Virus record (IMG/VR): IMGVR_UViG_3300049460_000128
Coordinates: 62,001-126,000 of that record
Reading direction: 5' to 3' (one strand)
DNA from: a virus
DNA: 64,000 nucleotides
Made by a program: the position numbers and the translations under genes. Shown here one piece after another: positions 29,424-49,586 of this stretch. Position 1 is the stretch's first letter. Every line of letters starts with the position of its first letter. Under the pieces are notes generated by a model. That model was not told the origin of the DNA. It made no database searches and saw only the letters and a list, made by a program, of their open reading frames with translations.

Positions 29424-29729
29424 ATGGAAATCATCGAAACTATTCCCGCCTTTAAAAAATATTGGTCAGACGACCATATCAGTCACCATTTCAAATATGG
29501 AGTTGTGGTCCGGTATGCACACATGACGAAAGCGATTGACGCTTTCGTGACTATCTACTGCGGATTTGACAGTACGGTATGGACCTACCGTAAGACCCAC
29601 ACGGTAGGTGATCTGAATATCGTATATGTGCATGACTTGGATTGGCAGGTCATTGCTAAACTGCATGGGATTGACTTTATTCCAATGGTCACTTCAATCT
29701 TGGTGAATCCGAGGTTCAATGATGTATGA
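29424..29729 (+). CDS. small array-family protein (group A)
   Basis: 101 aa. HHFKYGVVVRYAHMT strand, then LNIVYVHDLDWQVIAKLHGIDF near 66-87, the group A signature. No ribosome site; the promoter -10 lies seven bases upstream. Overlaps the next gene by 11 bases. Confidence 0.7.
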   Translation: MEIIETIPAFKKYWSDDHISHHFKYGVVVRYAHMTKAIDAFVTIYCGFDSTVWTYRKTHTVGDLNIVYVHDLDWQVIAKLHGIDFIPMVTSILVNPRFNDV

Positions 29730-29994
29730 CGTGGTAGTCAAACGTTGTCTGGGGCTTGGGCTTGGTAAGTATGAGGTCGTGATTCCGCTCACTTACTTCA
29801 ATCAAATATACTCGGTATCCATGTATGCGCCGACATTCAAAGATGCGTATCATGATGCCAAAGATCATATAAGCAAGCAGCCATATTTGAAAGATGCGAA
29901 GTTCTACTATCTGGATCAGGATGCTCAACGTAGTAAATATGATCTATGGGATGATGGCATTGTGATGATGTTGATTCTCTTATTGAGTGAATAA
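29719..29994 (+). CDS. small array-family protein (group B-like)
   Basis: 91 aa. Ends KYDLWDDGIVMMLILLLSE, close to the group B endings at 31.4-33.0 kb (D-L-W/F-DD-x-x-V-M-x-x-L). Middle has FKDAYHDAKDHISKQ, the single helix typical of the family. Confidence 0.68.
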   Translation: MMYDVVVKRCLGLGLGKYEVVIPLTYFNQIYSVSMYAPTFKDAYHDAKDHISKQPYLKDAKFYYLDQDAQRSKYDLWDDGIVMMLILLLSE

Positions 29995-31395: not shown

Positions 31396-31734
31396 ATGCA
31401 GCCAGCCGTCACATCTGAAGTCCAATTTCAAGCAATCACTCCCGAACACAGTAATCAAATGATTTGGTACGGGCGCATTGATGTGTATACCGCCAACGGG
31501 TCACGCCTGTTGAAGCAAGAATTTTCTGATCACGAATTCCAGAAGACCATTGAGTGGGCTCGTGATTGGCATACTACTGAAGATCTGGTTCCCAGTCGGG
31601 TGTTGTTGATCCCAGTGAGTATGGTTCAAACTTGGTCTGGCATTCACAAAGTGCATCATGATGCGAAGGCCGTACCAATCGATGACCTGTTCGACGATGA
31701 CTGTATTGTTATGGCAAGGCTGTCCATCATATGA
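31396..31734 (+). CDS. small array-family protein (group B)
   Basis: 112 aa. First of five head-to-tail paralogues. Shared layout: strand (MIWYGRIDVYTANG), helix (FQKTIEWARDW), strand (SRVLLIPVSMV), then VPIDDLFDDDCIVMARLSI at the end. Upstream 130 bases hold a TTGCCA/TAGAAT pair with poor spacing. Stop overlaps the next ATG. Confidence 0.75.
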   Translation: MQPAVTSEVQFQAITPEHSNQMIWYGRIDVYTANGSRLLKQEFSDHEFQKTIEWARDWHTTEDLVPSRVLLIPVSMVQTWSGIHKVHHDAKAVPIDDLFDDDCIVMARLSII

Positions 31735-32039
31735 GCAAAGTCAAAAGCGCCATCATTGAATATACGGCGGCGAGATCAGTATATCAATCGTATTGGTCAG
31801 TGAACATCTATCCAAGCATGGATGGAATTGCTATGCCATTTGTTAGGACATTGGATCAGGTCATCACATACTTGCGTAAACTGGCACCAACATATGACAT
31901 ACACTACGAGTCAATTAAACTGGTGACACACGGTGTGACGAGTAATGGTGAGCATGATCCAAATCCCATCCTCATCAATGAAATCAACAACATATGGGAC
32001 GACGACGAACTGACTGTATTGAGATTGCGAGTGGCATGA
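31731..32039 (+). CDS. small array-family protein (group B)
   Basis: 102 aa. YWSVNIYPSMDG, then LDQVITYLRKLAP helix and IKLVTHGV strand; ends INNIWDDDELTVLRLRVA. Four-base overlaps with both neighbours. Confidence 0.75.
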   Translation: MSKVKSAIIEYTAARSVYQSYWSVNIYPSMDGIAMPFVRTLDQVITYLRKLAPTYDIHYESIKLVTHGVTSNGEHDPNPILINEINNIWDDDELTVLRLRVA

Positions 32040-32362
32040 TGTATGACATTCTCGTCAGCTACATGCATCATCTGTCGCATCCGTGGTTCGGCATCATGGT
32101 GCCATGTGGTATGGCTATTGATACCAACATCGACGACTTCATACGCGCCGTTACCTTTGCTGACATAATTGAACGGACCAGAGTAGCGATACGGGCTGAT
32201 TCACGATCATGCAACAAAATCATTTTTACCAAAGGTCCCGTATATGTTGAAAATTTTCCTGACTTTCATACAGCCGAGCGACGCATCTATCCATCAATGC
32301 TGGTAGTTGATGACATATGGGATGATGCTGCCTTGGCTATCGTACGATTGAGTATATCATGA
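32036..32362 (+). CDS. small array-family protein (group B)
   Basis: 108 aa; ATGATG offers starts at 32036 or 32039, both overlapping the preceding stop. Ends VVDDIWDDAALAIVRLSIS. FHTAERRIYPSML recalls FMSAARKLQDGIV and FFQDPRVIYPDMS in the next two genes, so the five genes share a further block before the signature. Confidence 0.75.
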   Translation: MMYDILVSYMHHLSHPWFGIMVPCGMAIDTNIDDFIRAVTFADIIERTRVAIRADSRSCNKIIFTKGPVYVENFPDFHTAERRIYPSMLVVDDIWDDAALAIVRLSIS

Positions 32363-32712
32363 TTCCATATGGCCACTACCTGCTTGACTTGGTAATTTCG
32401 TATCGCCCCCATAATCAAAAAATGGGTCCATGGTTTGCTAGATGGTACGTGGCAAATCAGATCATCGATGATGCATATATCTACACACACGCGCCAACAT
32501 TTCATGACATAGTCGAGGAGATGAAAAAGTGGTTAACACGCGATCAATTACCACTTAATCGCATCTTTGTCATGCGTGGCATGTTAAATGAAGATCGGCA
32601 TGTTGACTTCATGAGTGCTGCCAGAAAGCTGCAAGATGGTATAGTGGAGATTGACTCATTGGAAGATGACGATCAATTGGTTTTGGCCAGACTTTCAATT
32701 GCGGAGAATTGA
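32359..32712 (+). CDS. small array-family protein (group B)
   Basis: 117 aa. Shares NRIFVMRG strand, FMSAARKLQDGIVEIDS and ends LEDDDQLVLARLSIAEN. Overlaps the preceding gene by four bases; its stop abuts the next start. Confidence 0.75.
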   Translation: MIPYGHYLLDLVISYRPHNQKMGPWFARWYVANQIIDDAYIYTHAPTFHDIVEEMKKWLTRDQLPLNRIFVMRGMLNEDRHVDFMSAARKLQDGIVEIDSLEDDDQLVLARLSIAEN

Positions 32713-33036
32713 TTGAACAAAGAAGTGATAATTGTGTCTAGCCATGACGGGAATCGAACCTGGTCCGGCTTTGTGATCAATGCAGGCGATAATTCACCCA
32801 ACGAACACATGAGTGTTTACACGGCGTCGTTTCACACTGTATTGTCTGGTGTTAGACAATTGGTGGAAGAAAACAACTACAAGGTGTCTCGTGTGATCTT
32901 AAAGGTGGGCCCCCTCAGATCGGACAAATACCCCAAGTTCTTCCAAGATCCAAGAGTCATATACCCCGACATGTCCTTGATTGAAGACTTGTTCGATGAC
33001 AATGAGTTTGCGGTTGCTCTTCTTAGCTGTCAGTAG
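32713..33036 (+). CDS. small array-family protein (group B)
   Basis: 107 aa with a TTG start directly after the preceding TGA. Contains SRVILKVGPLRSDKYPKFF, YPDMSLIEDLFDDNEFAVALLSC at the end, nearly the pattern of the 32036 protein. Last of the five. Confidence 0.72.
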   Translation: MNKEVIIVSSHDGNRTWSGFVINAGDNSPNEHMSVYTASFHTVLSGVRQLVEENNYKVSRVILKVGPLRSDKYPKFFQDPRVIYPDMSLIEDLFDDNEFAVALLSCQ

Positions 33037-39954: not shown

Positions 39955-40395
39955 TCAAATCAATGGGTTTGGATCAATTGGCGGTGTTGCCTTGGCAGCT
40001 CGCCGTTTAGCCGCACGTTCAGTTGCTTCGCTGGATGTTTTGGCTGTGTGGCAAGGATGACACAGTGTCTGGAGATTACCCATCTGCCAGAAAGACAAGT
40101 CACCCTGTGCTTCGATTAACGGCTTGATGTGATCCATATGCCATTTTGGAAGACCTTTGCGGGCACAAATGGTACCACACGATTTGCATTTGCCTTGGTC
40201 GCGTCTCCAGACAGCCTGGCGTGTTTTCGTGGGCCAGAAGAGCAGTTTGTACTCGGCGACGCATTTGACGTGCCAACGCGCTTTGCTGACTTTACCGCGA
40301 GCAGTGTTGCCGATAGCTTCATTGCACCAACGGCATGTGCCCAAGGGTGCAGTTTCAAAGTGAGGGGGAAGGGGAGGGATACGATGTTTACTCAT
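39955..40395 (-). CDS. HNH endonuclease (McrA-like)
   Basis: 146 aa from the ATG at 40395 (MSKHRIPP). Zinc pairs CRWC (about 21-24), CKSC and CHPCH, plus MDHIKPL with the catalytic His, form an HNH fold. Probably a homing or host-DNA nuclease. The start region of the next plus-strand gene lies just beyond its ATG, and a late box (40401-40408) ends only five bases before the ATG. Confidence 0.85.
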   Translation of the reverse strand: MSKHRIPPLPPHFETAPLGTCRWCNEAIGNTARGKVSKARWHVKCVAEYKLLFWPTKTRQAVWRRDQGKCKSCGTICARKGLPKWHMDHIKPLIEAQGDLSFWQMGNLQTLCHPCHTAKTSSEATERAAKRRAAKATPPIDPNPLI

Positions 40396-40400
40396 ACGGA

Positions 40401-40408
40401 TATTTATG
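40401..40408 (-). promoter_or_regulatory. late-type box (CATAAATA) next to the HNH start
   Basis: Six bases from the ATG at 40395, so a transcript would be leaderless if the box is used. It overlaps the ATG of the divergent array gene (40406). Confidence 0.4.
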
Positions 40409-40699
40409 ACTGATATACGGCTAGTGCCATTTACAACAACAATTACAATACGGCAGTGTGCAGCGAACGTATGGCATTCTGAAGTGAAGGAACAACATGC
40501 AACCAGATTTTCCGTTTCGTATTTTCGATTCCACCACACGCTCGCTGAAGTGAGAACATATTACGAGAATGAATACAAGATCAAGTTGACTAAGGTTCAG
40601 TATATCTTGGAAGCAGACGGCGACACCAAGACGTTAGAAGATGATGCTGACTGGGTTATGGCAACATTGACATACCGCCCATTAAAGGATCAGGCATGA
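40406..40699 (+). CDS. small array-family protein (group C)
   Basis: 97 aa. TITIRQCAANVWHSEVKEQ strand region, HTLAEVRTYYENEYK helix, VQYILEADGDTKTL strand and EDDADWVMATLTY signature. First of the group C run. Overlaps the next gene by four bases. Confidence 0.75.
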   Translation: MTDIRLVPFTTTITIRQCAANVWHSEVKEQHATRFSVSYFRFHHTLAEVRTYYENEYKIKLTKVQYILEADGDTKTLEDDADWVMATLTYRPLKDQA

Positions 40700-40956
40700 A
40701 TCTTGGTACTATTCAACCTTTACGTGGGCGTAGTGCAAACGGTGAATGGGTGACCTATTGCGAGATCATCGTCTTCATCAATGAGTCACGTTGTGATAGG
40801 ACTGGCACCATTATGATATGGGATGACGTATGGGAAGCCATGAAGTCATTTGATACCAAATATGGCGACATCAAATGGACATGGCAAGATTCACATGGCG
40901 AGATTGAACTCGATACTGACGCAAACTTGATTTTGTGGAAACTGTCAAAGTTCTGA
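40696..40956 (+). CDS. small array-family protein (group C)
   Basis: 86 aa. VTYCEIIVFINESR strand pair, VWEAMKSFDTKYG helix, ends IELDTDANLILWKLSKF, where Asn-Leu replaces the usual Asp-Trp. Followed by intergenic element copy B. Confidence 0.72.
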   Translation: MNLGTIQPLRGRSANGEWVTYCEIIVFINESRCDRTGTIMIWDDVWEAMKSFDTKYGDIKWTWQDSHGEIELDTDANLILWKLSKF

Positions 40957-40970
40957 TCGAATTTCAAAAT

Positions 40971-41030
40971 ACCTACCTGGAGTTTACGACATCAGGTAGT
41001 CATTTCTTGACAGGATTCCTCAAAAATCCT
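40971..41030. repeat. intergenic element copy B (conserved core plus hairpin)
   Basis: Core 40971-40993 is identical over 23 bases to copy A at 17647-17669; after 18 bases follows AGGATT-CCTCAAA-AATCCT (41012-41030). Loop matches copy A (CCTCAA) while the stem differs yet still pairs. The core here can also form a CTACCTG/CAGGTAG hairpin. It lies in the gap between the group C run and the convergent kinase-like gene. Confidence 0.75.
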
Positions 41031-41066
41031 CATATCTATGATCTCAACAATCTCTTGATTGTATCA

Positions 41067-41948
41067 TCATTGGTGTCCTTTACTCTTCATAAAAGCATCG
41101 AGGTCATCCATTGGAGTATTGTCAGTATTGGGTTTAACCATGTTGTTCATTGATGTTTTGCTTGCATTGGACTTCATAGCTTTCTTACCTTCGTTCTCAT
41201 CACGGAATAGTTTCTCATCGAACTTATAGAATGCACGATTCAGCATTAGGTCATCTGTATTTGCTATTGGGTCCAGGATAACCAGTTGATCGTCTCGCAT
41301 GATGAAGTTTTCGTCGTGTAGGTCTAGGGTGAAGCCCAATTGTTTGATGTCATGTAGGGTGGTCAGGAACAACTTTAGTTCATCGCCCAGGATATCTGGT
41401 TTATAGTTCATGTGATGATAACCGGACAGGTATTTGGTGAATTGGGTCAGGATAGGTATTTCGGAGTCTTGTAGGCGATCGAAGTAGAAGAGTGCGGTAG
41501 CCAGTTTGATGGTTGTTATATCAACTTCGCCGTCGTCTATTTCTGCGAATTGTTCTTCATATGGTTGGTATTTGAGGTCGAAGCGATAGTTGAGGATTGA
41601 TCTATTGCTTGCCAGTTTTTCCATTTTGACGAAGTTCACATAGTCTGGTGCGTCAGCGTGTCGGATGAAGAAAGCTGGCATCTTTTTTATCTGGCTAGTG
41701 AACTTTGGCAATAGTGGGTTGCTTTCATGTGTCTTGCAGTATTGTACGAATGCTGTGTATGCTGAGTCCAGAAGCCAGAATTTATAAACGGAGTCACCGA
41801 TCATTACAGCGGCGCCGTTAGCGCCTTGTCCCAGGAGTTTGATAGGGCCGTTGCCGTAAGTTGCTCGGAATTGGTCCAGGACTTCGGTGGCGGTCATATC
41901 GTGGAAACGTTTAACGCCTGTGAGTTCCATGAGTTCTTTGTATCGCAT
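41067..41948 (-). CDS. protein-kinase-like protein
   Basis: 293 aa. Gly-rich loop LGQGANGAAV (39-48) with Lys56 (VYKFW), catalytic loop LDLHDENF (208-215) and metal Asp226 (VILDPIAN): the core of a protein-kinase fold. The C-terminal 50 residues are charged and disordered. Late box AATAAATA and AGGGAA site upstream. Targets could be host or phage proteins late in infection. The coding strand is A/C-rich by eye, opposite to most genes here, which hints at inversion. Confidence 0.78.
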   Translation of the reverse strand: MRYKELMELTGVKRFHDMTATEVLDQFRATYGNGPIKLLGQGANGAAVMIGDSVYKFWLLDSAYTAFVQYCKTHESNPLLPKFTSQIKKMPAFFIRHADAPDYVNFVKMEKLASNRSILNYRFDLKYQPYEEQFAEIDDGEVDITTIKLATALFYFDRLQDSEIPILTQFTKYLSGYHHMNYKPDILGDELKLFLTTLHDIKQLGFTLDLHDENFIMRDDQLVILDPIANTDDLMLNRAFYKFDEKLFRDENEGKKAMKSNASKTSMNNMVKPNTDNTPMDDLDAFMKSKGHQ

Positions 41949-41970
41949 TTGGTAATTCCCTAGAAATCAA

Positions 41971-41978
41971 TATTTATT
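41971..41978 (-). promoter_or_regulatory. late promoter (AATAAATA) for the kinase-like gene
   Basis: 23 bases before the ATG at 41948; directly abuts the ATG of the divergent array gene at 41979. Confidence 0.62.
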
Positions 41979-42215
41979 ATGAAGCAATATCGTATTAGTC
42001 AGACCAAGTGGACGGAGCGGATGTTTTGGACGTATATGATTGATGAGCGTCGTGCTCGTGGTCCGTATTTTGAGATGACGATTGTTCGTTGTTTGCGGGA
42101 GATCATGATTGATGTTGGTGATATGCCGTTTGTCATTAACATTGACCTTCCAGGGATCAAGGAGTTATTGGAGGATGAATCGCAGGTTGTTATGGCGATG
42201 TTGCGTCATACATAG
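41979..42215 (+). CDS. small array-family protein (group C)
   Basis: 78 aa. MFWTYMIDERRARG, MTIVRCLREIMIDVG helix, FVINIDLPGIKEL strand, then LEDESQVVMAMLRHT. The leader is just the late box of the opposite gene, so its promoter is unclear. Confidence 0.68.
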   Translation: MKQYRISQTKWTERMFWTYMIDERRARGPYFEMTIVRCLREIMIDVGDMPFVINIDLPGIKELLEDESQVVMAMLRHT

Positions 42216-42229
42216 TGGCAAATGGGGTT

Positions 42230-42258
42230 TTGATTAATTGGATGGATATTGTTAGCAT
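42230..42258 (+). promoter_or_regulatory. sigma70-type promoter close to the start codon (TTGATT-17-TAGCAT)
   Basis: -35 TTGATT (42230-42235), 17-base spacer, -10 TAGCAT (42253-42258). The ATG at 42265 begins six bases later, so the transcript should be leaderless. Confidence 0.5.
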
Positions 42259-42264
42259 TGCCAC

Positions 42265-42549
42265 ATGAACAGATATGCTTTTATAAAGACAATGGATAAG
42301 AATGGCTGTTTCGCCTATTGGGACGGGTACATTCTTCGTGATGGTGAATCACTGATGACGGCTGTATACCATCGTAGATCCAAATGGTGGGTGCAATGCC
42401 TCATGGATGCGTATGATATCATGATCGAGGATGGTTACATAGCTGACCATATTGAGTATGAAGTCAATTTGTGTGAACCAAATGGTGTAGTGATTACGAC
42501 GATTACCAATGAGGGTGATTGGGCGTTAGCGAGATTAACATATGAATAA
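42265..42549 (+). CDS. small array-family protein (group C)
   Basis: 94 aa. CFAYWDGYILRDG strand pair, WVQCLMDAYDIMIEDGYI helix, IEYEVNLCEPNGVVITTI and NEGDWALARLTYE signature. First gene from the promoter at 42230. Overlaps the next gene by eight bases. Confidence 0.75.
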   Translation: MNRYAFIKTMDKNGCFAYWDGYILRDGESLMTAVYHRRSKWWVQCLMDAYDIMIEDGYIADHIEYEVNLCEPNGVVITTITNEGDWALARLTYE

Positions 42550-42778
42550 AGTTTTGTTTCCGAGTTTTCAACACACGAGTGGAGTTGGCGTGTATGCCCA
42601 TGGTATCAATTGGCCGCGAGAAGATGGCGAGTTGTTGCGGTATTTTTTCAAAGATCGTGAATCGGTGTTGCGATATTTTGCCAGCCGTCTGTCGTTATTT
42701 CCAGGCGTGGAATTTTACTTCGTTGATCCGGAAGGCAATGAAAGTCTTATTACGCCCGACAAATGGATCAATGAATAA
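42542..42778 (+). CDS. array-family protein lacking the terminal helix (group C)
   Basis: 78 aa. Same order of elements (GVGVYAHGINW, SVLRYFASRLSLFPG, EFYFVDPEGNESLI), but the protein ends TPDKWINE: the D-x-W point is reached and the A-x-L helix is missing. It may be a truncated or naturally short member. Overlaps both neighbours. Confidence 0.65.
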   Translation: MNKVLFPSFQHTSGVGVYAHGINWPREDGELLRYFFKDRESVLRYFASRLSLFPGVEFYFVDPEGNESLITPDKWINE

Positions 42779-43067
42779 ACTGATTCTTGTTGTTCATCCG
42801 TTACCAGGCATTCATCGTGCCTGGACCAACCAGTCTAGTATTTGGTGTGTATATGGCCCAAACAATAGTAAGTGGCCTGTGATCAATGGTCATGCTGAGA
42901 TTGCGTATGTGTACAGTTTGCGGGAAGTCTATGACCGCTTTATGACACCAGAGGGTCAGGCAAAATATGGTGGTCCGTTTGAGACTGTTGTTCGTATTGA
43001 GGGTCAACCGGAAGATGTGCTGATCAGTGATGCTGATTGGGCAGTTGCCATGTTGAAATACAGCTAG
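42771..43067 (+). CDS. small array-family protein (group C)
   Basis: 98 aa from ATG 42771, inside the last codons of the previous gene. SIWCVYGPNNSKWP, YSLREVYDRFMTPEGQAK helix, FETVVRIEGQPEDVLI strand and SDADWAVAMLKYS, a textbook group C ending. Confidence 0.75.
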   Translation: MNKLILVVHPLPGIHRAWTNQSSIWCVYGPNNSKWPVINGHAEIAYVYSLREVYDRFMTPEGQAKYGGPFETVVRIEGQPEDVLISDADWAVAMLKYS

Positions 43068-43096
43068 TTGTTATCTGGCAACCATACCAGTACCAT
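43068..43096 (+). promoter_or_regulatory. sigma70-type promoter close to the start codon (TTGTTA-17-TACCAT)
   Basis: -35 TTGTTA (43068-43073), 17-base spacer, -10 TACCAT (43091-43096); the ATG at 43103 follows after six bases. Same geometry as 42230 and 29388. Confidence 0.5.
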
Positions 43097-43105
43097 GCTG
43101 GTATG
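43083..43105 (+). promoter_or_regulatory. hairpin or operator including the start codon
   Basis: CATACCAG (43083-43090) pairs with CTGGTATG (43098-43105), whose last three bases are the start codon. It overlaps the -10 box at 43091. If transcription begins at the ATG the left arm is not in the RNA, so it would then be a DNA operator. Confidence 0.45.
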
Positions 43106-43417
43106 CACACTTTTATCATTGCCAAAATGCCCGCAGACTCGTTGGGTTGGACTTCGTATACCCTTTGGAGTACTGAGTCAATTGACACGCTCAAATGCTG
43201 TTATGATGATGGTGTGGGCATTGTGGATCATTTTTCCGAGTATCACAAATGGGCGAAAGCCATCTACGACAATCCAGGTGCGGGTCGTGTGATTCTTACC
43301 GTTGATAGTCAGACCATTGATCATCAGACTGGTAATCCGGGTGATGATATATGTCATGTTGAAATTACAAGTGATGCCGATTGGGCTGTTGCTGTTTTGA
43401 GTTATCCAATTGCATGA
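43103..43417 (+). CDS. small array-family protein (group C)
   Basis: 104 aa. Has SYTLWSTESIDTLKCCYDDG and HKWAKAIYDNPGAGRVILTVDS, ends CHVEITSDADWAVAVLSYPIA. Slightly longer than siblings in the middle. Four-base overlap with the next gene. Confidence 0.73.
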   Translation: MHTFIIAKMPADSLGWTSYTLWSTESIDTLKCCYDDGVGIVDHFSEYHKWAKAIYDNPGAGRVILTVDSQTIDHQTGNPGDDICHVEITSDADWAVAVLSYPIA

Positions 43418-43716
43418 AAAAACCCACCATTCCTCGTTTACCATTTCGTTTTATCCATATTGAGTTGACTAGGCCAACCCTGCGCCTCATTTATTTCTAC
43501 CCCAAGTGGGAAGTATCTGGATATAGGGGTGAGTTGACGCAGTTTCGCAATGTCGTTAATCGTGGTGCCACATTACGGGAAGTTAAGACATTGCTCGATG
43601 CTGATCCATATGTTGTTTCGACCACTCAGATAACTATATTGGATGGCGGACGTCGAATACCGGTTCTTACTGATGAGGATTGGGTTATGTTGATCTTGGG
43701 AGAGTCGCCGTCTTGA
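43414..43716 (+). CDS. small array-family protein (group C)
   Basis: 100 aa from ATG 43414. TLRLIYFYPKWEVSGY strand, ATLREVKTLLDADPYV helix, TTQITILDGGRRIPVL strand, TDEDWVMLILGESPS ending. Confidence 0.74.
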   Translation: MKKPTIPRLPFRFIHIELTRPTLRLIYFYPKWEVSGYRGELTQFRNVVNRGATLREVKTLLDADPYVVSTTQITILDGGRRIPVLTDEDWVMLILGESPS

Positions 43717-43725
43717 TGGTGACTT

Positions 43726-43974
43726 ATGAGACGAATAAAGGTTAGAAAGTTTGACATATATCAGGAATTTAGCTCAATAGCGTGTTACGACCGGCATTTT
43801 GCCTTTCATAGCTACTGGGTGTCATTGCGGGACTGTTATGACGCACTGGTGACGAATGGTGACGTCTCTGGACGTTATAGGATAGAGATTAAGCTCGAAG
43901 GCGAAACAATGGTACTTGAGGATGATGGCGATTGGGCAGTTGCATTGATAAAGTGGAGTCATGTTAAGTTTTGA
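43726..43974 (+). CDS. small array-family protein (group C)
   Basis: 82 aa. Compact type example: KFDIYQEFSSIACYDRHF strands, VSLRDCYDALVTNGD helix, YRIEIKLEGETMVL strand and EDDGDWAVALIKW signature. Nine bases after the previous stop, overlaps the next by 14. Confidence 0.75.
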   Translation: MRRIKVRKFDIYQEFSSIACYDRHFAFHSYWVSLRDCYDALVTNGDVSGRYRIEIKLEGETMVLEDDGDWAVALIKWSHVKF

Positions 43975-44194
43975 TTATTATTTGATGCTTAGAAGCGATC
44001 GTACCGTTGATGTGTACGATCGCCACCATACTGCCCATGGTACGTATTCATCGATTGCTAAATGTCAGGAGTTCTTGATGCCTTGGGTTCTATCACGTAA
44101 GGAAACGGTTGGTACAATATCAGATGGCAAATGGATTCCACTAATGGATGACGGTGACTGGGTGATGTTTTTATTGAGTCGTTCAAATGGCTGA
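43961..44194 (+). CDS. small array-family protein (group C)
   Basis: 77 aa. YYLMLRSDRTVDVYDRHH, SIAKCQEFLMPWVL helix, TVGTISDGKWIPLM strand, DDGDWVMFLLSRSNG ending. DVYDRHHTAHGTY resembles ACYDRHFAFHSYW in the gene upstream, so these two are close relatives. Confidence 0.73.
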   Translation: MLSFDYYLMLRSDRTVDVYDRHHTAHGTYSSIAKCQEFLMPWVLSRKETVGTISDGKWIPLMDDGDWVMFLLSRSNG

Positions 44195-44468
44195 CACTAC
44201 ATCCAATTCTCAAGGTTGGTCTCGTGAAAACGAAATTAGGATAGGTCCTTTCATTATTGATGGGGTTTGTTGTGCATGGGTTATCTGGGGTCATGACCGA
44301 ACCTATACCAAATGGATACAAAGTTTGAGTTCGTTGGTTGAGTGCAGGGAGTATTTGATGACACGTAATCTTTTGGGTGATGTAACATTGAGTATTATGG
44401 ATTATCCATCGTTCCAATTGGTGGATGAGACGGATTGGGCATTGGCTATGTTGACGCACGGACGGTAA
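44187..44468 (+). CDS. small array-family protein (group C)
   Basis: 93 aa. VCCAWVIWGHDRTYTKWI, LSSLVECREYLMTRNLLG helix, VTLSIMDYPSFQLV strand, DETDWALAMLTHGR ending. Eight-base overlap with the preceding gene. Confidence 0.74.
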   Translation: MADTTSNSQGWSRENEIRIGPFIIDGVCCAWVIWGHDRTYTKWIQSLSSLVECREYLMTRNLLGDVTLSIMDYPSFQLVDETDWALAMLTHGR

Positions 44469-44469
44469 A

Positions 44470-44736
44470 ATGGTTGATATCCCACATGTAACGCACATAA
44501 CGGTGGTTGAAGGGCGGTTGGCCAACTACCACAATATTGAGTGGATCGTTGTGATTCTTGATCCTTACTTGCTCACCGGCTTTACCTCGATTCGGGAGAT
44601 GTATGAGCACCTGCGCGATAAGAATTATTTTGCGGGCGAATTTATGATGACGATCAAGCATGGCTCGTTTGGTACTATCAACATCACCCATGAAAATTTG
44701 GAAGAGCAGATGGCGATTGCGTTTTTGACCTTATGA
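44470..44736 (+). CDS. small array-family protein (group C, divergent end)
   Basis: 88 aa. NIEWIVVILDPYLL, SIREMYEHLRDKNYFAG helix, FMMTIKHGSFGTI strand; ends THENLEEQMAIAFLTL, where the Trp is replaced by Gln-Met but the A-x-L helix is kept. Confidence 0.7.
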   Translation: MVDIPHVTHITVVEGRLANYHNIEWIVVILDPYLLTGFTSIREMYEHLRDKNYFAGEFMMTIKHGSFGTINITHENLEEQMAIAFLTL

Positions 44737-44972
44737 ATCAAGTCTACATCAACGACCTCCATCATCATGATTTCGTATTTTTCACGGTGCGTCATGGGCC
44801 GCATTTTGGAAGCATGACGACCAAAATATTCAACACGTTCCATGACGCATGTCGCTTTGCCCTAAACTCCCACGACATTGAGCGCCCATATGAGGCATCG
44901 GTGGTTATAGGCAACACCTTATACAAGCCCGAGAATGAAGAAGATTGGGCTATTTTGTTATTGACCGCATGA
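44733..44972 (+). CDS. small array-family protein (group C)
   Basis: 79 aa. FVFFTVRHGPHFGSM, TFHDACRFALNSHDI helix, EASVVIGNTLYKPE strand, NEEDWAILLLTA ending. Four-base overlaps on both sides. Confidence 0.74.
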   Translation: MNQVYINDLHHHDFVFFTVRHGPHFGSMTTKIFNTFHDACRFALNSHDIERPYEASVVIGNTLYKPENEEDWAILLLTA

Positions 44973-45520
44973 AACCAAGACTCGAAATTAGGCTAAGTTG
45001 GTCGCAAGATGTGTTTCAAGTCTACATCGAAGATCGAATACAAGGTCAAGTGGTCCATGAATCTCGTAGATTCATGCGTCAACAATTGGGCTCATTGGAA
45101 ATGGTGCCAGTTGTACTGCAACACTTGGGCTTGCGAATAGAAGATCATGCCTGTTATGTGATACACGAAGGGGCATATCGTCGTGTAATAACCAATGATG
45201 GTCCCGCACCACCTAGAGGTGGTGGCCTCCAGGGTGCTGATTGTTTTGAAACCTTTGATGATTTGCGGGCATTGCATCACAAATATAATCCCACCATACA
45301 TTACGTCAACTCCATGACCCTAGTAATTGAACGCAAGAACGGCTACTTCCAGATTCGTCAATTGGGTGGTCCCACCTGGCATTGGCCTGAAACCATGCAG
45401 GAAGCCAAACGTCTAATGCTTCAAAGTCATCCTCGCTATCAACATGGCTATGTTGTTGATGGGGATTTTCACGAACTCGAGACTGATGAGGATTGGGTCA
45501 TGGCTGCATTGACGTTATGA
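44969..45520 (+). CDS. double-domain array-family protein (group C)
   Basis: 183 aa, twice the usual size. The first half (1-85) has the family order but stops at AYRRVITNDGPAPP without the terminal helix; a Gly/Pro linker (PPRGGGLQG) follows; the second half ends VDGDFHELETDEDWVMAALTL. It looks like a fusion of two neighbouring members. Confidence 0.72.
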   Translation: MKPRLEIRLSWSQDVFQVYIEDRIQGQVVHESRRFMRQQLGSLEMVPVVLQHLGLRIEDHACYVIHEGAYRRVITNDGPAPPRGGGLQGADCFETFDDLRALHHKYNPTIHYVNSMTLVIERKNGYFQIRQLGGPTWHWPETMQEAKRLMLQSHPRYQHGYVVDGDFHELETDEDWVMAALTL

Positions 45521-45774
45521 TTGAACTGAACATTTATCCACGCATGTCATGGAATTATGACCAAGGCAAGCAGACTCTGAACTATGTCGCACAAGTGTTC
45601 AATGGTCGAGAGATTCGTATGGCTCTGAGCTATGATACTGTTTACGAATGCTATACCGCCTTGCGTGAGTGTGGGTTCCTTGAACGAGATTATACCGCTT
45701 GTGTTATGATCGATGGGGTGGTGCATCATCCGACTGACGATACCACGTGGATGATGGTATTGTTGAGTAGCTAA
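45517..45774 (+). CDS. small array-family protein (group C)
   Basis: 85 aa from ATG 45517. LNYVAQVFNGREIRM, TVYECYTALRECGFLE helix, YTACVMIDGVVHHP strand, TDDTTWMMVLLSS ending. Last of the uninterrupted run. Confidence 0.73.
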   Translation: MIELNIYPRMSWNYDQGKQTLNYVAQVFNGREIRMALSYDTVYECYTALRECGFLERDYTACVMIDGVVHHPTDDTTWMMVLLSS

Positions 45775-45780
45775 AACATA

Positions 45781-45809
45781 TTGATACCGTGATGTGGTAT
45801 GCCTATCCT
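45781..45809 (+). promoter_or_regulatory. sigma70-type promoter (TTGATA-17-TATCCT)
   Basis: -35 TTGATA (45781-45786), 17-base spacer, -10 TATCCT (45804-45809). 34 bases before the ATG at 45844. Confidence 0.6.
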
Positions 45810-45843
45810 GTATTTTTAACTACAAACCACATCATACACCATC

Positions 45844-46563
45844 ATGTCAGCTCAACCAGAACTCGTGCCAAATCTGCACAATATCATCACTCTGCCAGAT
45901 ACCAAAGCTCCAAACAAAAAGCATCCCAGTAACAAAGACAACTTCACCTACGGGATTGTTACCAATCTAATCAGTGACGAAATCAAAGATCATTCCATCT
46001 TCACTATGGACAACTCTGCTCGTTTCAGTATGACGGTCACTCGTCCGGTATGTCTGGGTACGCAGGACAATATTCCAGGCAGCAACAAGAAAAAGAACAA
46101 AGCCTACAATGTGGCTGGCGTATACATTATCTGGCAAGTGAAGCGTGCTGAAATTCTCCACTTTCTCCTGAAATTCGACAATGGTGATTTGGACTACATG
46201 TTCAAGAACTACGCTTGCTATTTTGGTGAATCTGATACTGCAAAACCAAGCGATGGCATTGGTGGTCGGGTCAACAGTCTGCGTCGTGATGTTGTAAAGC
46301 AATTGGCTGCAAATGTGGCTCCTGCTAGGTCAACCAGCAAAGAAGCCAGTGCGTATAAGCTTGCCCAACAGATGCTGGCCAACTATGCGTTGTATGTTGA
46401 ACCAAATGCTGGTTTCACTACTGCGGTTGATTGTCTGTTTGCCAGTTACGTTGATATTGCTACCATCCAGGGGTATAATGGCCAAGCTGTTGAGAGTGAC
46501 TGGGTTGAGCGTACTCTCATCATGACTTACAAACACAATGGTTTACTGGTGAATCAAAAATAA
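45844..46563 (+). CDS. unassigned 239-aa protein
   Basis: Begins MSAQPELVPNLHNIITLPD; Lys-rich segment NNIPGSNKKKNKAYN-like near 77-90; helical C-terminal half. No family recognised, no array signature. Own sigma70-type promoter, so probably early. The start lacks a clear ribosome site (CACCATC precedes it). Confidence 0.75.
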   Translation: MSAQPELVPNLHNIITLPDTKAPNKKHPSNKDNFTYGIVTNLISDEIKDHSIFTMDNSARFSMTVTRPVCLGTQDNIPGSNKKKNKAYNVAGVYIIWQVKRAEILHFLLKFDNGDLDYMFKNYACYFGESDTAKPSDGIGGRVNSLRRDVVKQLAANVAPARSTSKEASAYKLAQQMLANYALYVEPNAGFTTAVDCLFASYVDIATIQGYNGQAVESDWVERTLIMTYKHNGLLVNQK

Positions 46564-46571
46564 GGAAGTAT

Positions 46572-46859
46572 ATGGGTAAGGTGGTACATTTGATCTTGAA
46601 TAAGAAATCAAACCATTCGGATCAGATCTTGATTCTGGAGCATGGGTATCCAGAGTTGGTATGGGATCATTCGTTAGACCTTACCCCCATTGAAGCCTTG
46701 ACAGAGGTTAAGCGGATATACTTGCATCACATTGAACGTGGTAATCAAGTATTGGTCAGCACCTGTCATGAATACCGTCGTAAGCAAGATGGCAATGAGT
46801 TGCGCCCCCTCGACGTTATGGATGACGATGCTATGATTGTTGAGGCATTGAGTCGATGA
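46572..46859 (+). CDS. small array-family protein (group C)
   Basis: 95 aa. QILILEHGYPELVW, IEALTEVKRIYLHHIERG helix, QVLVSTCHEYRRK strand, DVMDDDAMIVEALSR ending, close to group B in using Ala-Met for Trp. AAGGAAG site. Four-base overlap with the next gene. Confidence 0.7.
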   Translation: MGKVVHLILNKKSNHSDQILILEHGYPELVWDHSLDLTPIEALTEVKRIYLHHIERGNQVLVSTCHEYRRKQDGNELRPLDVMDDDAMIVEALSR

Positions 46860-47116
46860 ATATCACTTTTGAACCAATCAGTGCAGACTTCAGAGATACA
46901 GGTCACTCGACATCCGTTACCTATATGTCATCAAATACCGAGAGCCGCGTCGTCATCGGGTGCTTGAATCTTAAGCTTGGCGTTAATTTATGGCTCCATG
47001 ATATGGAACGTAAATTTGATTACTTGGCCGATTCTCTGACCGTTGAATGGCACGATGGTGAAGTTTTTGCCATTAGATCTGAATTAGATTTGGTTTTGGC
47101 CTTGCTTCGCTTTTAA
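46856..47116 (+). CDS. small array-family protein (group C)
   Basis: 86 aa. Strands TSVTYMSSNTESRVV, short helix LWLHDMERKFDYL, SLTVEWHDGEVFAI strand and RSELDLVLALLRF ending. Its stop overlaps the stop of the convergent gene at 47113. Confidence 0.7.
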   Translation: MNITFEPISADFRDTGHSTSVTYMSSNTESRVVIGCLNLKLGVNLWLHDMERKFDYLADSLTVEWHDGEVFAIRSELDLVLALLRF

Positions 47117-47520
47117 GCCAAGTAGCCAAATTTCCTTGCATTCGCGATCGCATCAGGGCTCATAGCAACCGGAATAGTTGTTGCGCCCTGATCCCGTAGG
47201 TATGAGAAGCGATGTCTACCATTACTAAATGTCACACGTCCTTTTTCATCCACATACGCTTCACTGGCTTCGACGGTCTCGCCAGTTTTCAGGAATTCAC
47301 CAAAGCCCTGATAGCGTTTACCAATTCCTTGTGTACCACCTGTACCAATATAGAATTCAGTGTCTTTGCTCCAGGCATGGTTGAACGGTTGCACCAATAT
47401 GTCTACCAGTGTGTCCTGGTGACGCTGGGACGACAGGCTGAGCTTAAAGGGAATCGGTGTGTCAGATTGTGGCAATGACACGCTATGTGACCGCTCGTTT
47501 ATGATTTCTGTGTATCGCAT
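47113..47520 (-). CDS. late protein with ParB/sulfiredoxin-like motif
   Basis: 135 aa from ATG 47520 (MRYTEIINERSHSV). VTFSNGRHRFSYLRDQGATTIPVAM (about 98-122, seen in parts) resembles the G-R-H-R strand-turn of ParB-like nucleases, but the rest is not clear. Late box CATAAATA 20 bases upstream. N-terminus MRYxE resembles that of the kinase-like gene, also late and on this strand. Its last seven codons (RKFGYLA) recur at 48286-48309. Confidence 0.65.
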   Translation of the reverse strand: MRYTEIINERSHSVSLPQSDTPIPFKLSLSSQRHQDTLVDILVQPFNHAWSKDTEFYIGTGGTQGIGKRYQGFGEFLKTGETVEASEAYVDEKGRVTFSNGRHRFSYLRDQGATTIPVAMSPDAIANARKFGYLA

Positions 47521-47539
47521 GATTGGTTCCGAAAGTTGA

Positions 47540-47547
47540 TATTTATG
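47540..47547 (-). promoter_or_regulatory. late promoter (CATAAATA)
   Basis: 20 bases before the ATG at 47520; fits the pattern of late boxes ahead of minus-strand single genes in the array zone. Confidence 0.6.
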
Positions 47548-47595
47548 CGTGGTGGGCCAAGGCCAATTGAGTCTGAAAAGTTGAAATGCCGCATA

Positions 47596-47623
47596 TTGAG
47601 GCTTGCTGGTTATTGTATACAAT
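47596..47623 (+). promoter_or_regulatory. sigma70-type promoter (TTGAGG-16-TACAAT)
   Basis: -35 TTGAGG (47596-47601), 16-base spacer, -10 TACAAT (47618-47623), inside ATTGTATACAAT, a 12-base palindrome. 41 bases before the ATG at 47664. Confidence 0.55.
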
Positions 47624-48380: not shown

Positions 48381-49586
48381 TTACAGGAACTTCAGCGAAG
48401 CGGTGTTCATACCGACCAGACCCAGGTAGTCAGCAGCGTTACCCAGTGACGAAGCAGCGTTCGTCAGTTCCAGGTAGCCGTAACGGGTCATGAACGATAC
48501 AACTGGTTCGAAGGTGTTTGGATCAATGATCACACCGCTCGAGGTCAGTGGTACGTATGGGCAGTAGTAAGCTGCGGCGTCGATCTCGCCTGGGCCTTTG
48601 TAACCAACCAGAACTGGGGTGCTATCGCTAGCGTACTGGTCGACGTAAACGCGCATCGAGTTGTTCAGCATACCAACGAACTTGGTGTTAGTTGGAGCTT
48701 CGAACGTGCCTTCGGTAGTACGGGCGAAAGCCGAAGTAGTAGCCGATTGCAGAATGGTCAGTGCGGTTGGGGAAACAACAACCCAGTTACCTGCGCCACG
48801 ACGGGTACGTGCAGCGATCAAGTTAGCTTGACGGTTGATCAGAACTGCCAGAGCAGCGTGAACGTCACCGACGAAGGTTGGGGTGCCCGAAACAGCGGCT
48901 TGGTCAAACACAGCGGTTGCTGCACCTGGCAGTGCGCGCAGGGAAGTCAGGATTTCCTGGTCGATTTCGGCGGTAATTTCTTGCGCCAGTGCAGCCATGA
49001 TTTCTGCTTCGATGTCGATACCTTGTTGAGCTTGCGAATCTTGCGCAGCTTCAAAGGTCCAACGAGCGCTCAGACGACGTGTTTTCGCCTCAACGACTTC
49101 TTTCAGAATCTGGATGCTCAAACGCTTACCAGCAGTACCTTCCAGGGTCGAGGTTGCTTCAGCTTTTGGAGCTGTTGCATCGCCGTTACCCGAGTAAGCA
49201 CGAGCGATATCGTATGGTGACAGTGCTTCTTTACCAGCGGTAACGCCAGCGAACGAATCAGCGTAACGAACGCGCAGGGTGTGGATCTGTGCCACTGGCG
49301 AAGTCATTGGCTGAACACCAATAATTTCGTTAGCGATCACGGTTGGCATCACACGACGGATAACCGGCAGGATAACCTTGTTCAGGGTAGCGATGTTAGC
49401 GCTGTTGGTTGCACCCGAAGTTGCATTTTCCATCAGCTTCAGTTCACGATAGGTATTATCGAGAACGGTTTCCATCATACGCTTCTTGGTTGGGTTTACC
49501 GAACCATCTTGATTGTGAGTCAGATCTTTGCCTTCGCAGAGCATTTTTTTAGTTACTGACCACTGGGATTCAAACAGTTTACTCAT
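48381..49586 (-). CDS. 23: major capsid protein (T4 gp23-like)
   Basis: 401 aa precursor (T4 gp23 is 521). ILPVIRRVMPTVIANEIIGVQPMTSPVAQIHTLRVRY (residues about 72-108) is a hallmark. The likely gp21 cleavage site is L-M-E at 51-53, aligning with the T4 site before the N-terminal arm. Shorter than T4, with less insertion-domain sequence. Directly after the scaffold gene and followed by a strong terminator. Confidence 0.96.
   Translation of the reverse strand: MSKLFESQWSVTKKMLCEGKDLTHNQDGSVNPTKKRMMETVLDNTYRELKLMENATSGATNSANIATLNKVILPVIRRVMPTVIANEIIGVQPMTSPVAQIHTLRVRYADSFAGVTAGKEALSPYDIARAYSGNGDATAPKAEATSTLEGTAGKRLSIQILKEVVEAKTRRLSARWTFEAAQDSQAQQGIDIEAEIMAALAQEITAEIDQEILTSLRALPGAATAVFDQAAVSGTPTFVGDVHAALAVLINRQANLIAARTRRGAGNWVVVSPTALTILQSATTSAFARTTEGTFEAPTNTKFVGMLNNSMRVYVDQYASDSTPVLVGYKGPGEIDAAAYYCPYVPLTSSGVIIDPNTFEPVVSFMTRYGYLELTNAASSLGNAADYLGLVGMNTASLKFL

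Follow-up and report, generated by a model that had tools for sequence, protein, structure and literature searches.

Why should a jumbo phage keep a run of small, closely packed genes which share the end of their proteins and so little else that pairwise comparison misses their kinship? The question is raised by positions 40.4-47.1 kb of the window, which is the whole stretch of 64,000 nucleotides analysed here (bases 62001-126000 of the IMG/VR record IMGVR_UViG_3300049460_000128, whole contig 296,594 bases). The about 17 small plus-strand genes listed in a first, sequence-only reading of this DNA are all present; their C-terminal signature consists of acidic residues, D-W or an equivalent and then hydrophobic-A-x-L, and they are called the DW type below. 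Profile comparison indicates that the run forms a small branch within a far larger protein superfamily, of which some giant phages carry roughly 80 to 150 very different copies. The major capsid protein of the source virus (48381-49586, minus strand) shares 80% identity with its counterpart in Sinorhizobium phage Phosso and 68% with the one in Agrobacterium phage Atu_ph07, which places the virus among the T4-superfamily jumbo phages; the record is probably incomplete.

Members of the gene run

Membership was examined by a hold-out test, in which a profile of the last 50-60 residues was built with each member left out in turn and the omitted gene was ranked against all open reading frames (ORFs) of the 297-kb record. 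Eleven of the 16 scorable genes outrank every non-member ORF of the genome (15-45 bits, the best reversed ORF reaching about 7), and 41979-42215 and 46856-47116 are near misses at ranks 9 and 10. The genes starting at 40696, 44470 and 46572 are not recovered and are without independent sequence support. In 42542-42778 the final helix is missing. The genes mostly overlap or abut, as first described, but the run is not unbroken, since a 293 amino acid gene on the minus strand (41067-41948) and an unrelated 239 amino acid gene on the plus strand (45844-46563) lie within it. A profile named A9, made from an array of the related phages L054/L055 and containing no window sequence, matches two window genes in a search of the genome (E 2e-4 and 0.026) and has no matches in nine other records searched, its own source contig apart. 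The best-ranked non-members with the DW profile are largely genes of other arrays, which carry the sister signature F-x-x-[ED]-x-D-A-x-x-F-K-L-[TK]-x (also given as F-x-x-E-x-D-A-x-x-F-K-L-[KT]-W), here called the FKL type. The genes of the run, followed by two further entries of the window, are as follows.

40406..40699, plus strand: DW-type member, 97 amino acids, containing LEDDADWVMATLTY; hold-out rank 1, 22.7 bits; matched by the A9 profile
40696..40956, plus strand: possible member, 86 amino acids, ending in LDTDANLILWKLSKF; not recovered in the hold-out; 14 bits with the FKL model
41979..42215, plus strand: DW-type member, 78 amino acids, ending in LEDESQVVMAMLRHT; hold-out rank 9
42265..42549, plus strand: DW-type member, 94 amino acids; hold-out rank 1, 18.5 bits
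42542..42778, plus strand: probable truncated member, 78 amino acids, ending in ITPDKWINE, without the last helix; placed by alignment only
42771..43067, plus strand: DW-type member, about 98 amino acids, ending in SDADWAVAMLKYS; hold-out rank 1, 21.2 bits; A9 profile E 2e-4
43103..43417, plus strand: DW-type member, 104 amino acids, ending in SDADWAVAVLSYPIA; hold-out rank 1, 15.3 bits, narrow margin
43414..43716, plus strand: DW-type member, 100 amino acids, ending in TDEDWVMLILGESPS; hold-out rank 1, 21.5 bits
43726..43974, plus strand: DW-type member, 82 amino acids, used for structure prediction; hold-out rank 1, 45.3 bits; AlphaFold2 pLDDT (predicted local distance difference test) 89
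43961..44194, plus strand: DW-type member, 77 amino acids; hold-out rank 1, 21.7 bits
44187..44468, plus strand: DW-type member, 93 amino acids; hold-out rank 1, 29.2 bits
44470..44736, plus strand: possible member, 88 amino acids; hold-out rank 96 (not recovered); position and helix motif only
44733..44972, plus strand: DW-type member, 79 amino acids, ending in NEEDWAILLLTA; hold-out rank 1, 17.4 bits
44969..45520, plus strand: protein of 183 amino acids with a DW-type domain as its C-terminal half; hold-out rank 1, 27.7 bits
45517..45774, plus strand: DW-type member, 85 amino acids; hold-out rank 1, 27.1 bits
46572..46859, plus strand: possible member, 95 amino acids, ending in DVMDDDAMIVEALSR; not recovered in the hold-out
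46856..47116, plus strand: DW-type member, 86 amino acids, ending in SELDLVLALLRF; hold-out rank 10
29719..29994, plus strand: extra member outside the run, ending in LWDDGIVMMLILLLSE; recruited by an iterated A9-derived model, 49 bits
31396..33036, plus strand: second small array of five related genes (31396-31734, 31731-32039, 32036-32362, 32359-32712, 32713-33036), placed by alignment

The N-terminal half of the 183 amino acid protein looks like a second copy of the domain without the last helix. The five genes of the second small array each end in D-D-[DNA] followed by hydrophobic residues and L; profile comparison with A9 aligns them from end to end, but with P 8e-4 and a probability of 24% this is suggestive only. 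The array at 29.7-33.0 kb is probably related.

A sister type in other arrays of the genome

The weak matches of the DW profile elsewhere in the record fall on dense arrays of small genes with FKL ends, the signature lying usually 0-3 residues from the C-terminus. A simple count of the motif gives 41 ORFs, where 0.3 are expected from shuffled ORFs. An iterated 24-column C-terminal model finds 64 FKL genes in the source genome at a threshold of >=11 bits, most of them in the other arrays, with zero matches among its reversed ORFs, and 294 across all DNA of the records then compared. A chance motif is rejected, as reversed and shuffled controls yield almost nothing. Taking both types together the source genome carries about 80 members or more. 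Among the FKL proteins of this genome BLASTP detects 59 of 2016 pairs (E<1e-4), and the early remark that ordinary pairwise comparison would overlook the kinship is borne out in these sister arrays.

Predicted fold and relationship of the two types

The AlphaFold2 prediction for the DW-type gene 43726-43974 gave a best model of pLDDT 89 and predicted template modelling score (pTM) 0.75; the mean pLDDT of the five models spreads from 64 to 89, and the fold for this reason stays a prediction. The best model has strands at residues 7-14, 17-22 and 27-31, a helix at 34-43, strands at 51-57 and 60-64 and a helix at 67-76. A helix starting S/T-h-x-E-C/V and a strand ahead of the signature had been described from the sequence, in agreement with this model (helix 34-43, strand 60-64, helix 67-76). 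A minimal FKL member (pLDDT 84) has strands at 6-8 and 13-16, a helix at 24-32, strands at 37-40 and 45-48 and a helix at 51-61. Compared by element order, the two models have the arrangement beta-beta-alpha-beta-beta-alpha in common, and in both the conserved end corresponds to the last strand, the acidic cap and the last helix. A strand-acidic turn-helix at the C-terminal end of the protein is common to both types.

Foldseek comparison of the models with the PDB gave no significant match; the C-terminal DNA-binding domain of T4 MotA recurs among the non-significant matches of the FKL model (E 1.5-4) and carries no evidential weight. Against viral models there was one borderline match, to a 66 amino acid uncharacterised protein of Rhizobium phage P10VF (E 2e-3), in whose genome the family profile finds no match. 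A sequence search of the PDB returned a designed helical protein and noise only.

At the sequence level the DW genes match the L054/L055 array (A9) with E 8e-8 and 94% probability. The DW genes with their relatives match a set of 309 FKL sequences with E 8e-5 and a score of 19.5, as against at most 8.7 for 13 decoys, and the alignment extends from helix 1 to the end; with a small FKL set it covers the signature only. The two types are likely one superfamily, its common fold being supported by prediction and its kinship by moderate statistics. Of the first proposal, a set sharing one partner or fold, one family and, by prediction, one fold are supported.

Distribution in other genomes

Searched with the signature as a DNA pattern, IMG/VR yielded 28 stretches, and many of these belong to contigs of 250-608 kb. 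Profile A7 has matches in 14 of 14 records tested, most of which had been found through the signature pattern and are not a random sample. A7 matches at least 148 places in a contig of 561 kb; the counts are 38 for a contig of 608 kb, 28 for the source record and 26 for the cultured phage Phosso. The C-terminal profile A8 finds 58 in the source genome and 44 in Phosso, while two further jumbo contigs give 64 and 34; there are three weak matches in Pseudomonas phage phi30-3 and zero in T4, phiKZ, GAP32, XbC2, a Vibrio jumbo phage and Atu_ph07. Profile A3 gives five weak matches in Atu_ph07 and none in 121Q and phage G. Over the searches made, the count for Phosso ranges from 26 to 45. A T4-type Gp23 capsid scored above the cut-off in 10 of the 14 records. 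Neither the DNA of the region nor a DW member showed similarity to sequenced phages, and an FKL member showed weak matches only.

In 84,980 bacterial and archaeal genomes there were 21 pattern matches, all single, one of them strong and at a C-terminus, and no arrays of signature genes; a bacterial origin is rejected on this ground. In Phosso almost all small genes at 1-22 kb are annotated as hypothetical. As the family is carried by a cultured and annotated pair of phage and host, Phosso and Sinorhizobium meliloti, experiments are possible now.

Selection and rate of change

At nine of the 12 signature positions tested the synonymous codons vary as much as they do in the gene bodies; the other three (E at 11, A at 15 and F at 17) show a slight bias. 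Since the synonymous codons are mostly as varied as the background, the signature is selected at the protein level, and a recombination site or DNA cassette, a promoter or a translation signal is rejected as the cause of the conserved ends. Of the junctions examined in the largest array 16 of 30 are 4-base overlaps with ATG, which suggests that the array genes may be translationally coupled as in operons. Promoter and terminator scans of the array gave no excess over shuffles.

A measure of divergence comes from L054 and L055, where arrays of the same kind lie beside the capsid gene but on the other strand, just as in the window. The two capsids are 98.5% identical to each other and 88% to that of the source phage, a value which overstates closeness, as the ClpP of the source phage is 55% identical to that of G008, the contig of L054. 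Collinear array orthologues of L054 and L055 are 30-51% identical, while flanking genes of annotated size are mostly 58-98% (capsid 98%, two upstream genes 96% and 91%, the latter over 550 residues), a gene resembling peptidyl-tRNA hydrolase 81% and one other small gene also 30%. Pairwise BLAST finds no match between the L054/L055 arrays and the source array. The fast evolution proposed for the set is supported by the low identity of collinear orthologues beside a nearly identical capsid. For its description as a recombining set the largest array offers only a few short DNA matches of 23-51 bp, and divergence after duplication is sufficient. Most members are mildly acidic (median isoelectric point, pI, about 5.4), and DNA mimicry is rejected for proteins only this acidic.

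Neighbourhood of the ClpP gene

A phage ClpP gene is present in 11 of 12 records searched and genes for Clp-type AAA+ ATPases in 11 of 11. In G000, G004, G005, G007, G008 and L178 the gene immediately before clpP, on its strand, is a conserved single-copy FKL member; among the first five of these it is 29-38% identical and ClpP 49-60%, and in four of these five a second member lies downstream. Phage phi30-3, with few members, has two of them downstream of clpP. The pair of member and clpP is absent in Phosso, Atu_ph07, G002 and G010, and most of 83 viral ClpP loci have no family member nearby. At control loci members also adjoin the sliding-clamp or the capsid gene in some genomes, with differing positions, so that adjacency to clpP by itself is weak. 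What makes the ClpP locus stand out is the conserved orthologue, its position and its strand; going by gene order, it is the strongest genomic association of a conserved member and offers a lead to function.

In the source genome the ClpP gene (genome coordinates 183811-184356, minus strand) has a single family member on each side, and a Clp-type AAA+ ATPase is encoded at about 243.5-245.8 kb; an apparent member beside a ClpA/B-like gene (242693-243436) was judged spurious on inspection. Phosso, G005, G007, G010 and G011 have a second, more diverged ClpP-like gene. In L163, L164 and L166 the member-ClpP pair is preceded by two larger proteins, one a putative AAA+ ATPase of the MoxR type and the other a putative VWA metallopeptidase-like protein.

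Possible roles of the superfamily

We favour the view, at a probability of about 0.5, that the arrays are a multigene family whose proteins, built on one fold, interact with host or defence components and are kept by the phage as a repertoire. The run would be a local expansion of a large superfamily of proteins mostly 60-110 residues long, with a predicted beta-beta-alpha-beta-beta-alpha fold, found in several jumbo phages with a T4-type capsid. Its genes would have multiplied by duplication; they stand in co-directional arrays, where the stop codon of one gene overlaps the start of the next, and have diverged very fast, while selection on the protein keeps the last strand-turn-helix (an acidic cap, Asp, four mostly hydrophobic residues and x-Leu-[KTRS]-aromatic). 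Established here are the existence of the genes, their kinship within each type, the copy number, the constraint on the protein and the rapid divergence. Each paralogue may use its variable surface for a different component of the host or its defences, while the conserved end may maintain the fold or dock a common partner. The reasons for this reading are the duplication, the quick divergence on one fold, the strongly varying number in related phages and the coupled arrays, and a host-takeover or anti-defence role, as suggested at the outset, fits by analogy. It is weakened by three observations: no member has a detectable known function and PADLOC matches none of the 40 members tested; rapid divergence is compatible with relaxed constraint as well; and the profile kinship of FKL and DW is moderate, with 60% probability.

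A different use of a conserved end is suggested by the clpP neighbourhood. The members could be Clp adaptors, in which the C-terminal element docks a Clp component, the variable body picks a substrate and the bound protein is passed to the phage Clp protease. The conserved upstream member in six jumbo phages, the downstream one in four and the wide presence of ClpP and Clp-type AAA+ genes argue for this, but members adjoin sliding-clamp and capsid genes too and such adjacency is common, the pair is lacking in four phages named above and at most viral ClpP loci, and the signature is predicted to be folded and not a free tail; we consider the idea unlikely. It is less likely still that each genome encodes about a hundred diverged receptors, which deliver different proteins of the host or its defences to the Clp machine of the phage; this, if true, would make protease-adaptor arrays a prokaryotic counterpart of the large viral substrate-receptor families.

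Nucleic-acid- or polymerase-binding regulators, with many promoter- or RNA-specific factors on one fold, would have a precedent in the approximately 35 zinc-ribbon copies of phage G proposed as transcription factors (PMC7824862), and the MotA domain is among the weak Foldseek matches of the FKL model. Such a role is improbable, given that these matches are non-significant and that a median pI of about 5.4 is unusual for DNA binders. A largely neutral radiation, in which duplicates tolerated in a head-full genome are selected only to fold and be non-toxic, would account for the variable copy number and order and for the fast divergence of the bodies; it is doubtful in view of the frames kept open in dozens of overlapping genes, the signature retained over about 300 sequences and the collinear L054-L055 arrays, when neutral duplicates are expected to decay. 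That the reported array lies beside the capsid gene, likewise in L054 and L055, could point to virion or internal-head proteins with the signature as packaging signal. We regard this as very unlikely: most members are in arrays elsewhere, relatives with close capsids have no arrays there, and the known T4 head-targeting sequences are N-terminal.

Other genes near the arrays

An HNH endonuclease gene (PF01844, E 6e-8; 39955-40539, minus strand) stands at the start of the array and its ORF overlaps the first array gene. The 293 amino acid protein inside the run (41067-41948, minus strand) combines a glycine-rich loop (LGQGANGAAV) with a stretch that resembles the catalytic loop of kinases (LHDENFIMRDDQLVILDP); Pfam gives no match, and the protein may be a divergent kinase. 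The ORF at 47113-47622 (minus strand), which lies between array and capsid gene, matches PF22162, a plasmid fertility inhibition factor, weakly and below the cut-off (E 2e-4). In three phages (window about 28.9-29.3 kb; L054:15563-15997; L055:14612-15043) a peptidyl-tRNA hydrolase 2-like gene stands at the border of arrays of this family. Beside the largest array, at 208.9-215 kb of the genome, are candidate genes for a QueE-type radical SAM protein, a GTP cyclohydrolase I and a sugar epimerase.

Comparison with known systems

The family was recognised by none of the libraries searched, which included Pfam, PHROGs, NCBIfam, PADLOC and the PDB, and literature searches found no description of it, the reviews mentioning arrays of similar genes only. 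The protein superfamily thus appears undescribed, as the sequence-only reading had supposed. Most jumbo-phage genes are without assigned function, and here a sizeable block of this dark matter resolves, in several phages, into one superfamily, whose profiles can be used to search other phages; at up to about 150 copies in a genome, scores of orphan genes become one testable question.

Paralogue expansion in jumbo phages is already known in principle; what sets the present family apart is its sequence, its predicted fold, the hyperdivergence of its members, their number and their spread. Tandem gene duplication has been described in phages G and 121Q (2017, PMC5646251), where the copies are very similar, whereas most pairs here are missed by BLAST and the A3 profile is blank in both phages. 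In the zinc-ribbon expansion of Bacillus phage G (Iyer et al. 2021, PMC7824862), too, a single small domain has multiplied within one jumbo-phage lineage. In distinction to it, the proteins described here have no cysteine pattern, a mixed alpha-beta fold, a presence in many related phages and larger numbers.

The PB1 domain (PF00564) resembles the models of the present family in two points, namely the succession beta-beta-alpha-beta-beta-alpha and an acidic motif ahead of the last helix. It was rejected, as there is no Pfam PB1 match up to E 10, the final strand after helix 2 is missing in the models and no PB1 structure is among the listed Foldseek matches. In Clp adaptors of the SspB type the body selects the substrate and the conserved C-terminus, an exposed peptide after a linker, docks Clp. 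The scheme of a variable body with a conserved C-terminus is alike, and one member here is paired with clpP; comparing by description, the conserved end here is predicted to be folded and not an exposed peptide.

In its way of working the family may be likened to the multigene families of large eukaryotic DNA viruses, such as the poxvirus Bcl-2-like proteins and the multigene families of African swine fever virus, which also consist of many diverged paralogues of one fold in arrays. No homology is claimed, the hosts here are bacteria and the role is assigned by analogy; on this comparison the superfamily would give the multigene families of large eukaryotic viruses a counterpart among prokaryotes.

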